A DNA stretch of 64,000 nucleotides from Luteibacter aegosomaticola (GTDB lineage: Bacteria; Pseudomonadota; Gammaproteobacteria; Xanthomonadales; Rhodanobacteraceae): assembly GCF_023078475.1 (NCBI RefSeq), contig NZ_CP095741.1, positions 2,108,001-2,172,000 of the forward strand, given 5' to 3'. The position numbers and the translations under genes were made by a program. Positions 9,819-11,993 of the stretch are shown piece after piece (position 1 is the stretch's first letter; every line of letters begins with the position of its first letter). A model generated the notes under the pieces. The model was not told the DNA's origin, made no database searches, and worked only from the letters and a program-made list of their open reading frames with translations.

Positions 9819-10601
9819 ATGAAGCACTTTTTGCGTCCCACGATGATGGCCGTCGCCCTGGCGGTTTCGCTGGGTGCGGCCGCGGGCGCATCCGCCCAGG
9901 CTGCCAAGCCGGCAGCTGCCCCTGCGGGCGGCGTCGATAAGCAGAAGGCCAGCTATGTCGTGGGTTGGGACCTTGCCAGCTCGCTTCCGCCGCTCGTCGC
10001 GCGCGAAGTGGATCCGGCGACCGTCGCCAAGGCCCTGCAGGCTGCCCTGTCGGGCCAGAAGCCGACCATGACCGAGGCGGAAGCCAAGTCCACGCGTGAA
10101 GCCTTCGTGGCCCAGCTGAAGGTCAAGGCCGAAGCTGAGTACAACAAGGTTGCCACGCAGAACAAGACCGAAGGCGATGCCTTCCTGGCGAAGAACAAGT
10201 CGGCGGCTGGCGTGAAGGTCACGGCGTCGGGCCTGCAGTACACGGTCGTCCAGGCCGGTACCGGCCAGCGTCCGGGCCCGAATGATACGGTCACGATCAA
10301 CTACACCGGTACGTTCGTGAACGGCGAGAAGTTCGATTCGTCGGCTGACCACCAGCCGGCTGGTCCGGCCCAGATCCCGCTCGCCGCGGTGATCCCGGGC
10401 TTCCGCGAGGGCCTGCAGCTGATGCAGACCGGCGGTAAGTACAAGCTGTTCATTCCGTCGAACATCGCTTACGGCGCCAAGCCGGAAAACGGTTTCCCGC
10501 CGAATGCGACGATCATCTTCGACGTCGAACTGCTGAAGACCGGCCCGACCCCGGCTGGCCAGGGCCCGGGCGCTGGCGCCCCGGCTCCGGGCGGCAAGTA
10601 A
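9819..10601 (+). CDS. Exported FKBP-type peptidyl-prolyl isomerase (FkpA/Mip-like)
   Basis: The 260-residue protein starts with a signal peptide (MKHFLRPTMMAVALAVSLGA, likely cleaved near ASAQA). An FKBP N-terminal dimerisation helix region follows (~35-130, KASYVVGWDLASSL). The FKBP catalytic domain spans ~140-245 (GLQYTVVQAGTGQRPG, VTINYTGTFVNGEKFDSS, IPGFREGLQLM, YGAKPENGFPPNATIIFDVELL). It should fold proteins in the periplasm by prolyl cis-trans isomerisation. The last ~18 residues are a Gly/Pro/Ala tail. A GAGAGGGAG ribosome-binding site precedes the ATG. A sigma-E-like promoter lies upstream and a strong terminator downstream, so it is probably a single-gene unit. Confidence 0.93.
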   Translation: MKHFLRPTMMAVALAVSLGAAAGASAQAAKPAAAPAGGVDKQKASYVVGWDLASSLPPLVAREVDPATVAKALQAALSGQKPTMTEAEAKSTREAFVAQLKVKAEAEYNKVATQNKTEGDAFLAKNKSAAGVKVTASGLQYTVVQAGTGQRPGPNDTVTINYTGTFVNGEKFDSSADHQPAGPAQIPLAAVIPGFREGLQLMQTGGKYKLFIPSNIAYGAKPENGFPPNATIIFDVELLKTGPTPAGQGPGAGAPAPGGK

Positions 10602-10661
10602 GCCGCAAGCGGCTTACGCGAAACGCCAGGCGAAGCGGCAAAGCCGCAACGCCTAGCAATC

Positions 10662-10694
10662 AAAAAAGGCCGCGAGCAATCGCGGCCTTTTTTG
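10662..10694 (+). terminator. Rho-independent terminator after the FKBP gene
   Basis: AAAAAAGGCCGCGA, a CAAT loop, then TCGCGGCCTTTTTT makes a GC-rich stem with a T tract on the plus strand and an A tract on the other side. It could also work in both directions. It is 60 bp after the stop codon and marks the start of a gene-free region. Confidence 0.93.
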
Positions 10695-10706
10695 TTGCCC
10701 GCTCGA

Positions 10707-11132
10707 TACGGCTCGCCTTTGGCATCGCGTTGGGCTGGCTCGGCCTTTGGCCATCGCGTTAGCGCTCGGACGTGGTCGCAGGAGAGCCCTCGGCGCCCAC
10801 CCTCGCTGCTCAGACAGGTCCTCGTCGTTCGAAAGGGAGTGCCGCTAACGCGGCAAATGTACTTATTTGGCCTACGGCCGCGAACCGGCAGCCAGGCGGG
10901 GCTTTTCGACGAGACGTCCCTGTCTCGTCGAAAAGGAACGCACATCCATGTGCGTCCCCCCTGCGGGGCTATTCCCGCCCGACTGCCTCGCCTGCGAAAC
11001 TCGCCTCGAGGGTGGGCGCCGAGGGCTCTCCGAGGCACTGAGGGCGTGTGATGGGAGAGCCGGCAACAGGGTCGTGGCGGCCGGCCTTGTCGCCCGAGGT
11101 ACAAACCCACCGACAAACCAACGCCCACCCCC
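10707..11132 (+). repeat. Left unit of a ~965-bp imperfect palindrome; structured repeat of unknown nature
   Basis: This unit is repeated in inverted orientation at 11269-11672. Perfectly conserved blocks include 10752-10773 (matches 11608-11629), 10792-10816 (11566-11590), 10867-10889 (11496-11518) and 10999-11020 (11361-11382). Between them are hairpins at 10841-10854, 10902-10935 (14-bp perfect stem) and 10939-10954. The partner unit has hairpins at the equivalent places with different stem bases. No convincing coding frame is present: the open frames here lack ribosome sites and match no family I know. Confidence 0.85.
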
Positions 11133-11268
11133 GTAGGAGCCCACCCTGTGGGCGACGCCGTTCGCGGCAGCCTTCGGATCTTGCGGCGTCTGGCCCTTGA
11201 TCGATCGTGCCGTACGAGAGGGCCTGAGCGTTTGGGCGAAAGATGTCGCCCACAGGGTGGGCTCCTAC
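11133..11268. repeat. Inverted pair of REP elements at the centre of the palindrome
   Basis: The left arm GTAGGAGCCCACCCTGTGGG starts at 11133 and the reverse arm ends in CTCCTAC at 11268. The interior is about 80 bp, longer than in the copies at 3192 and 7205. It sits on the symmetry axis (near 11190-11200) between the two long inverted units. Confidence 0.92.
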
Positions 11269-11672
11269 GGCCGTTTGTCAGGTGTGGGGCGCCGCGAGGT
11301 CGGCCGTGTTGGTGGCGGTGGCTTTCCCACCGATCAGCCTCAGTGTGTCCGAGAGCCCTTGGCGCCCACCCTCGAGGCGAGTTGTCGGAGACGAGGCGGG
11401 CGGACGGGAACAGCCGCCGCAGGCGGGGCCGGCCATGGAGGGCCGGTCGTTTGAAACCGAGCCAGGGAAGGCGAGTTTCAAACCCCCGTCCGCACGCCGG
11501 TTCGCGGCCGTAGGCCAATCAGATACATGGCCCCGGAGGGGCATCCCTGTCGAACGTTGGAGACTTGTCTGAGCAGCGAGGGTGGGCGCCAAGGGCTCTT
11601 TCCGGAGACGTCCGAGCGCTAACGCGATGCCGAAGGCGAGCCCGCCCAGAGCGAAGCCGAAGGCGAGCCGTA
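11269..11672 (-). repeat. Right unit of the ~965-bp imperfect palindrome (inverted copy)
   Basis: This is the reverse-complement partner of 10707-11132. Its hairpins lie at 11429-11446 (CCGGCC/GGCCGG, loop ATGGAG), 11449-11483 (GTTTGAAAC/GTTTCAAAC outer stem) and 11530-11542 (GCCCC/GGGGC). Read in the same direction as the left unit, two of the loops are kept (TCCA, TCCCT) while stem bases are replaced by other complementary bases. Together with the left unit it accounts for most of the 1.18 kb without a gene between the FKBP gene and slyX. Confidence 0.85.
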
Positions 11673-11764
11673 GAGACCTGCAAGCCCACCCCGGTTTGCT
11701 CCCCGGGCGCGGGAGATTACAATCGGCGGCTGCGGCGCTTGCGCCCGTGTTCCTGAGGATTCCC

Positions 11765-11788
11765 ATGAAAAGCCCGCGCCGTGTCTGA
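11765..11788 (+). other. Possible 7-codon upstream ORF overlapping the slyX start
   Basis: ATG at 11765 follows a good GAGGA site and encodes MKSPRRV before TGA at 11786-11788, which overlaps the GTG start of slyX (11781). slyX itself has no obvious ribosome site, so its translation may depend on ribosomes ending this short frame. This is inference from arrangement only. Confidence 0.4.
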
Positions 11789-11993
11789 CGCCGACGACCG
11801 CCTGATGGAGCTCGAGGTACGCCTCGCCTTCATCGATGACACCGTAAACGGCCTCTCATCGGCGGACGCCGACATATCGCGCCGACTCGATGCGCTTGAG
11901 CGCGCCGTGCGCGAAATGCGCTCCGATCTCGCCACCATGCGCACCGGTGCCGGCGGCGACACGGCTATCGAACCGCCGCCGCCGCACTACTGA
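11781..11993 (+). CDS. slyX: SlyX family protein
   Basis: The 70-residue protein begins (M)SDADDRLMELEVRLAFIDDT and ends in the conserved PPPPHY. Between them lies a short coiled coil with heptad spacing (LEVRLAFIDDTVNGLSSADADISRRLDALERAV). Length, coiled coil and the PPHY tail are typical of SlyX, whose role is still unknown; it is named from its position beside slyD in E. coli. The start is GTG 11781. DUF2058 follows 25 bp downstream and may be co-transcribed. A 7-codon ORF with a better ribosome site overlaps the start. Confidence 0.88.
   Translation: MSDADDRLMELEVRLAFIDDTVNGLSSADADISRRLDALERAVREMRSDLATMRTGAGGDTAIEPPPPHY

Follow-up and report, generated by a model that had tools for sequence, protein, structure and literature searches.

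In bacteria, MITEs and REPs tend to be regarded as simple hairpins or as passengers. ISL3 elements are associated with A/T-rich target duplications of about 8 bp, and REPs are the DNA hairpins of the RAYT system. In TwoAYGGAY RNA (Rfam RF01731) an outer stem surrounds a tandem of hairpins, a short and then a long one, with loops of the (A)YGGA(Y) type; a published motif study proposes CsrA binding for it and describes its function as unknown as of 2014 (PMC4333381). CsrA-sequestering RNAs of the CsrB/RsmY/RsmU type carry several GGA motifs, and RsmU of Xanthomonas is described as derived from a 3' UTR (PMC7694677).

The element described here lies at positions 10707-11672 of the window, the stretch of 64,000 nucleotides of the Luteibacter aegosomaticola genome that was analysed, and resembles each of these systems in part. 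Like ISL3-family MITEs it is multi-copy, and its variants in sister species have terminal inverted repeats starting from GGTTC and concordant A/T tracts at their ends; it differs from them in its size of about 700-1000 bp, in its two structured, covarying inverted arms with a REP pair in the centre, and in that the copies in its own genome are without ISL3-like ends. With RAYT-associated REP/BIME sequences it shares the intergenic inverted pair of hairpins, and a true REP pair stands in its middle, but its arms are multi-hairpin structures of ~148 or ~250 nt. The tandem GGA-loop hairpins of TwoAYGGAY RNA are found here as an optional insert, or cassette, in the larger closed arm of a palindromic repeat, and score below the cut-off of the model. 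The GGA motifs also recall CsrB/RsmY/RsmU, which are encoded by one gene each, whereas the present element is known from DNA alone, as about twenty dispersed palindromic copies. The palindrome is probably one copy of a genus-specific, non-autonomous, MITE-like mobile repeat that keeps the structure of its arms; the alternatives weighed below are not mutually exclusive with this reading. The element is a palindromic MITE/REP-type repeat with structured arms; among the best-ranked literature matches on Luteibacter repeats and insertion sequences, MITEs, RAYTs, ISL3 and CsrA sponges, no account was recognised as describing it.

The imperfect palindrome of ~966 bp runs from an outer segment through the left arm, the REP pair and the right arm, which is in inverse orientation, to the mirrored outer segment (Table 1). 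It is made up of nested inverted repeats (10707-10742/11637-11672, 86%; 10747-10773/11608-11634, 93%; 10783-10838/11544-11599, 88%; 10857-10927/11458-11528, 75%; 10998-11061/11320-11383, 83%) around the REP pair, itself an inverted repeat of 91%. The outer segment opens with GGCTCGCCTT(T/C)GGC. A sequence-only reading had described an imperfect palindrome around a REP pair with three hairpins in each unit, and both the palindrome and the hairpins, with the stems given there, are present. The same reading had put the size of the two units at ~415 bp; their inversion holds, but the basic unit is a closed arm of ~250 nt plus flanks. The ends of the left arm form a perfect 25-bp inverted repeat (10781-10805/11007-11031) and those of the right arm a perfect 23-bp one (11352-11374/11577-11599). 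Read from the centre outward and compared with 200 dinucleotide shuffles, the left arm alone (minus strand) folds with a z-score of -12.1 and the right arm alone (plus strand) with one of -9.0. The central REP, GTAGGAGCCCACCCTGTGGGCGA, has 626 copies with up to two mismatches in the 5.09-Mb genome (319 forward and 307 reverse), and the short GTAG-headed hairpin that marks REP/RAYT sequences, where it often forms inverted pairs, is found in the central pair only. The proposal of a REP-derived composite is partly right, since the centre is a REP pair; the arms are not REP copies. That no gene explains the palindrome agrees with the absence of Pfam matches at E <= 0.01 in the four ORFs (119-349 aa) that cross it.

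Table 1. Features of the palindrome and of its upstream border, in window coordinates
Feature	Position	Strand	Basis or remark
Intrinsic terminator of the upstream FkpA-like gene, which the element adjoins	10668..10693	+	Stem GGCCGCGA/TCGCGGCC followed by T6, by eye; T-tract adjacency tested
Left outer segment, opening (TAC)GGCTCGCCTTTGGCATCGCG, inverted copy of 11608-11672	10707..10773	+	Inverted-repeat search; end common to 18 copies
Left arm (A) with 25-bp perfect closing inverted repeat	10781..11031	-	RNA-like reading from centre to outside; repeats, copies, covariation, folding
TwoAYGGAY-like double-hairpin cassette of the left arm	10897..10963	-	Rfam model match, 39.1 bits (cut-off 43)
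Left-arm long hairpin, loop with ACAGGGACGT at 10914-10923 (minus)	10902..10935	-	Inverted repeat, copy alignment, motif count
Left-arm short hairpin, loop with ACATGGATGT at 10942-10951 (minus)	10939..10954	-	Sequence, copy alignment, motif count
Central inverted pair, first REP (GTAGGAGCCCACCCTGTGGGCGA)	11131..11165	+	Inverted repeat, genome copy count
Central inverted pair, second REP	11236..11270	-	Inverted repeat, genome copy count
Right arm (B), inverted relative to A, with 23-bp perfect closing inverted repeat	11352..11599	+	RNA-like reading on plus strand; repeats, copies, covariation, folding
Right-arm short hairpin, loop CATGGAGG	11427..11448	+	Copy alignment, motif count
Right-arm long hairpin GTTTGAAAC/GTTTCAAAC, loop CAGGGAAG	11449..11483	+	Inverted repeat, copy alignment, motif count
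Outer segment on the right, repeating the left end in inverse orientation	11608..11672	-	Inverted-repeat search

With the left arm as query, 77 matches are found in the own genome, which contains 18 full composites; these can be aligned over their whole length, and their similarity stops at the same point on either side. Half elements are also present: two of them, each a right arm with REP, lie either side of a kinase-like gene, and there is one further half plus one rearranged copy. The two that flank this gene are inverted (L031:1821-3578, G000:C1:1224320-1226077), and the gene between them has a P-loop/AAA kinase-like match below the Pfam cut-off; the pair may be a palindrome with a captured cargo gene. 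Within the genus, 21 of 23 genomes (own included) have matches at E <= 0.001, up to 107 in one genome and only one to three in four of them, and inverted arm pairs recur in other Luteibacter, in complete and draft genomes alike. No arm is present at the fkpA locus in any of 22 loci from other genomes, so that the copy in the window is an insertion private to its species among those sampled; divergence among these loci is too great for the exact junction of the empty site to be recovered, and for minus-strand loci the sequence compared was that on the opposite flank of the gene. When 299 genomes drawn from the order were searched, with two candidates scored per genome, 13 matched, of which 11 belong to the genus and two others reach E of about 5e-4; the strong matches in the order are confined to the genus, and no credible match outside it came from the searches made. 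The exact 25-base core pattern (one N) occurs in at least 64 stretches of genome contigs, all of them Luteibacter among those listed and possibly with the own genome left out. In one copy (L078, G008:C1:827400-830000) a gene named from its sequence as an IS30-type transposase lies inside the hairpin region; considered as the element's own gene it was rejected, as it looks like an insertion into the hairpin, and this suggests an IS that targets the hairpin. Palindromes and repeats are hazards for assembly and some copies stand at contig ends of draft genomes, as an assembly artefact would have it, but 18 copies with different flanks in a single-contig assembly and the inverted pairs of other complete and draft genomes speak against this, as the four ORFs without Pfam match do against decayed coding sequence, and explanations of either type can practically be dismissed.

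The arms occur in two forms, which can share one composite, and mosaic arms are seen. After 11 of 263 profile matches had been dropped for want of the exact anchor CGCTGCTCAGAC, the columns of which are therefore invariant by choice, 185 distinct units were extracted. Six with fewer than 19 of 25 matches in the terminal repeat were dropped, a filter that favours paired closing stems, that is the outermost helix, and leaves the inner helices unaffected. The remaining 179 comprise 124 short arms (144-170 nt), 54 long arms (245-254 nt) and one unit of 211 nt that was set aside. The long form carries a hairpin cassette of ~110 nt in place of some 8 nt in the short form. Two types of left-arm cassette are found in the own genome, one in 5 copies (that of the window included) and the other in 13, and the stems of the two types are quite different in sequence yet complementary.

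Covariation was measured in two alignments obtained after redundancy filters, A1 with 32 of the 54 long arms and A2 with 36 of the 124 short arms. The short arms are without the inner cassette, and the unit of 170 nt that closes their list is omitted from A2. The controls were shuffles that keep the relatedness of the arms in place and slid structures, which keep it too. In A1 97.7% of cells are paired against 88.6% after shuffling, two-sided change is seen in 27 of 69 pairs (shuffle mean 17.1) and in 188 cells (57.1 shuffled), and the covariation score is 0.266, compared with 0.098 for shuffled alignments and at most 0.051 for slid structures; the measure of further pair types, one of five, was reached by 10 of 500 shuffles. 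A2 has 99.2% of cells paired (94.1% shuffled), with two-sided change in 12 of 40 pairs (4.1) and in 76 cells (16.7) and a score of 0.172, against 0.069 for shuffled alignments and at most 0.052 for slid ones. The covariation of the arm stems is secure. The sequence-only reading, which had compared left with right arm, was correct that pairing is kept while bases change, and its expectation that homologues would covary is borne out by the copies and by other Luteibacter, above both kinds of control; the effect is best shown by such a comparison of copies and species, and not only by left against right in the one copy in the window. The selection on structure that it proposed, on RNA or single-stranded DNA, is in line with the compensatory changes, which do not by themselves prove selection on RNA. 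Watson-Crick covariation could also come from template-switch correction of hairpins or from selection on DNA hairpins.

The evidence from the strands is mixed, and selection on an outward RNA rather than on DNA is favoured but not settled. The consensus of the 124 short arms folds at -72.7 kcal/mol on the strand read from centre to outside and at -41.0 kcal/mol on the other strand, and that of the 54 long arms at -111.1 and -100.9 kcal/mol, respectively. Over the union of predicted pairs in the short arms, G-U exceeds A-C on the centre-to-outside strand in 16 columns against 8, with 254 G-U and 67 A-C cells. The long arms on this strand have 11 such columns against 5, while their cells (70 G-U and 131 A-C) go against the outward strand. 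Short-arm pairs predicted on both strands comprise 3935 Watson-Crick, 12 G-U, 6 A-C and 14 others, a set whose choice in itself disfavours G-U. In a DNA-level explanation, hairpins in single-stranded or cruciform DNA would be read by a transposase or replication protein of a REP/RAYT- or IS200-like kind, covariation would be kept by intrastrand template switching or selection on DNA hairpins, and there would be no functional RNA. Pairs that are almost all Watson-Crick, a central REP pair, long arms whose fold is nearly as stable on the opposite strand, and the absence of a promoter-like site in a simple scan of the palindrome region are all consistent with this explanation. However, the GGA loop of the long hairpin is kept in all 32 long arms of A1 although its stem differs between cassette types, which correction of stems does not predict, and both the much better folding of short arms on the outward strand and the double hairpins with long closing stems of different sequence in other families of the order argue against it. 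An element acting as DNA only is thus possible but rather doubtful.

In the long arms the tandem hairpins with GGA loops lie within an outer stem, as in TwoAYGGAY; this stem (helix 2) has 89.8% of its cells paired in A1, and the loop of the short hairpin holds GGA in 28 of the 32 arms and CGA in four. The Rfam model scores best, at 40.9 bits, in four own-genome copies other than that of the window, which is below the gathering cut-off of 43. Only the five type-I copies matched, the remaining 13 of the 18 full copies giving no match at E <= 0.05, and in the whole-genome search the score is 36.3 bits. The binding consensus of CsrA/RsmA, which we take to be a loop-borne (A/U)CANGGANG(U/A), is matched over the full 10-mer by both loops in the left arm of the window. 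Such a 10-mer is found at least once in 9 of the 54 long arms, and the left arm of the window alone has two. The core CANGGANG is present on the outward strand of 48 of the 54; its mean per long arm is 1.30 outward, compared with 0.24 on the inward strand and 0.11 after mononucleotide shuffling. Enrichment of the looser motif ANGGA is only mild (1.57, 1.17 and 1.06, respectively). None of the 124 short arms has CANGGANG outward, so the part shared by both arm forms cannot serve to bind CsrA. The own genome has one CsrA gene (G000:C1:1708193-1708348). The cassette may bind CsrA/RsmA, a suggestion that is made from the motifs and is put forward tentatively, with more doubt than confidence.

Among 151 genomes of the order, 8 have TwoAYGGAY matches above the cut-off. 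Among 26 matches with enough flank, from 20 fetched loci, the closing stem exceeds the 95% level of mismatched flanks in 17, seven of which reach the maximum of that background, and nine do not exceed the level; the background was built by pairing flanks that come from different genomes (570 mismatched pairs; median 7, 95% level 13, maximum 28). TwoAYGGAY RNAs within long closing stems across the order are offered as a lead. In other families (L237, L239-L247 and L253) many of the closing stems are of ~30 bp around ~140 nt, and inverted pairs of units are seen in L237, L240, L241, L246 and L253. At three loci (L238, L250 and L254) matches lie beside hairpins of the CTTTTCTTTG/CAAAGAAAAG type, a different type of repeat in the order.

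The sequence-only reading is incomplete in that the palindrome belongs to a multi-copy, genus-specific element, variants of which in other species show terminal repeats like those of ISL3 and what seem to be duplicated targets, and in that its cassette is a double hairpin of the TwoAYGGAY/CsrA type. In dw_328, SG786 and their relatives the composites end in inverted repeats resembling GGTTC(T/A)TCGCGGATTACCGGGG that stand directly against T or A tracts, and these tracts are often part of evident terminators. The end pattern GGTTCTTCGCGNANTNNCGGGG (up to one mismatch) is found in 15 of 23 genomes of the genus, and the reversed control gives no match in any of them. One such site lies in G016, a genome without arm matches, so that the ISL3-like end is not exclusive to composites. 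With up to five mismatches allowed, 35 of 55 composites from other Luteibacter have a matching left end, 35 a right end and 25 both ends together with flanks; target duplications were looked for in L085, L086, L089 and the loci numbered L114 or higher. The tracts that flank these 25 are T/T in 10, A/A in 10, T/A in one and unclear in four, and hence concordant in 20 of the 21 that can be classified, with CTTTTTTA on both sides in L114 as an example. If each end had met the terminator of a neighbour, T/A would be expected, which makes a duplicated target the better reading of the concordant tracts. The flanks match at a mean of 5.96 of 8 positions; unrestricted shuffling of the right flanks gives 3.55, with 0 of 1000 rounds reaching the observed mean, and shuffling within tract classes gives 5.78 (p = 0.06), the latter value because the tracts resemble each other. 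Since the within-class test is weak, the case for duplication rests on the concordance of tract orientation.

The likeness of these ends to ISL3 comes from a single end of a single IS, that of G022: there the related end GGTTCATCGCTGATAACCGTGG, directly after a terminator-like T8 tract, precedes an open reading frame for an ISL3 transposase that scores 165 bits and is truncated by the locus boundary. DDE_Tnp_ISL3 matched 23 of 23 genomes, but as a core gene of the genus the transposase was rejected: the two strong matches (165 and 82 bits) are both in G022, matches elsewhere are of at most 29 bits, and in the three loci opened (L260, L261 and L271) the weak match is a protein that by its sequence resembles a fatty-acid desaturase. 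In L271 (G017) arm sequence is seen by eye just downstream of this protein. In the window's own genome no ISL3-like ends and no target duplication are found (the common substring of the two flanks is 4.50 in the 18 copies and 4.37 when flanks are mismatched), and the copies begin near GGCTCGCCTTCGGC. In 15 of the 18 copies a T tract lies no more than 30 nt from an end, in two of them at both ends, compared with 14 of 1564 background segments from the same loci; the stems ahead of these tracts are terminator-like by eye. The element is multi-copy and dispersed with no transposase inside, as is typical of a MITE (18 full copies; ORF check on the window copy). The elements of the sister species are proposed to be, or to have been, carried into T tracts at gene ends by an ISL3-type transposase supplied in trans, and the subfamily of the window may have been inserted in the same manner.

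The ISL3-like ends and concordant tracts of other species, the T-tract adjacency of the own copies, the lack of an arm at fkpA in 22 of 22 other loci and the mosaic arms and half copies are also to be expected of a selfish or neutral palindromic MITE. In that case the arms would be relics of transposition of no benefit to the host, and the adjacency to terminators would reflect a preference for such target sites where the genome is GC-rich. Compensatory change over many helices of diverged arms, however, needs selection or a mechanism of correction, and such a passenger is a serious possibility that falls somewhat short of probable. The very stable arms adjoining terminator-like tracts might also be taken for a bidirectional barrier for RNA stability or termination at gene ends, but the element lies beyond the existing terminators and the region 10560-11800 has one weak terminator-like site where 1.3 are expected by chance, which makes a barrier very unlikely.

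For the mobile repeat with conserved arm structure, the symmetry of the palindrome would mean that a transcript traversing it from either side holds one arm in the outward sense. This arm would fold as a closed multi-hairpin RNA, which the covariation supports, and its cassette would show two GGA loops that may, to judge by their motif, bind CsrA/RsmA. Expression is the weakest step of this mechanism, given the lack of a promoter-like site and the terminators between the neighbours and the element; these terminators would shield it from read-through and so count against expression. In its furthest form the proposal is that of a transposable CsrA sponge, which in either orientation and from a transcript of either side would present one double-GGA hairpin, which would reshape the CsrA regulon as it spreads to gene ends, and of which the TwoAYGGAY RNAs of the order would be the same kind; this is speculative and, as a whole, unlikely.

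A mobile palindrome with elaborate arms that are kept by compensatory change in many copies and several species is a natural data set, with which it could be asked whether selection acts on RNA or on DNA hairpins, or whether template-switch repair is at work. Should it be true that the GGA hairpins bind CsrA, TwoAYGGAY would gain a testable role and a transposable element would be tied to a global regulator.
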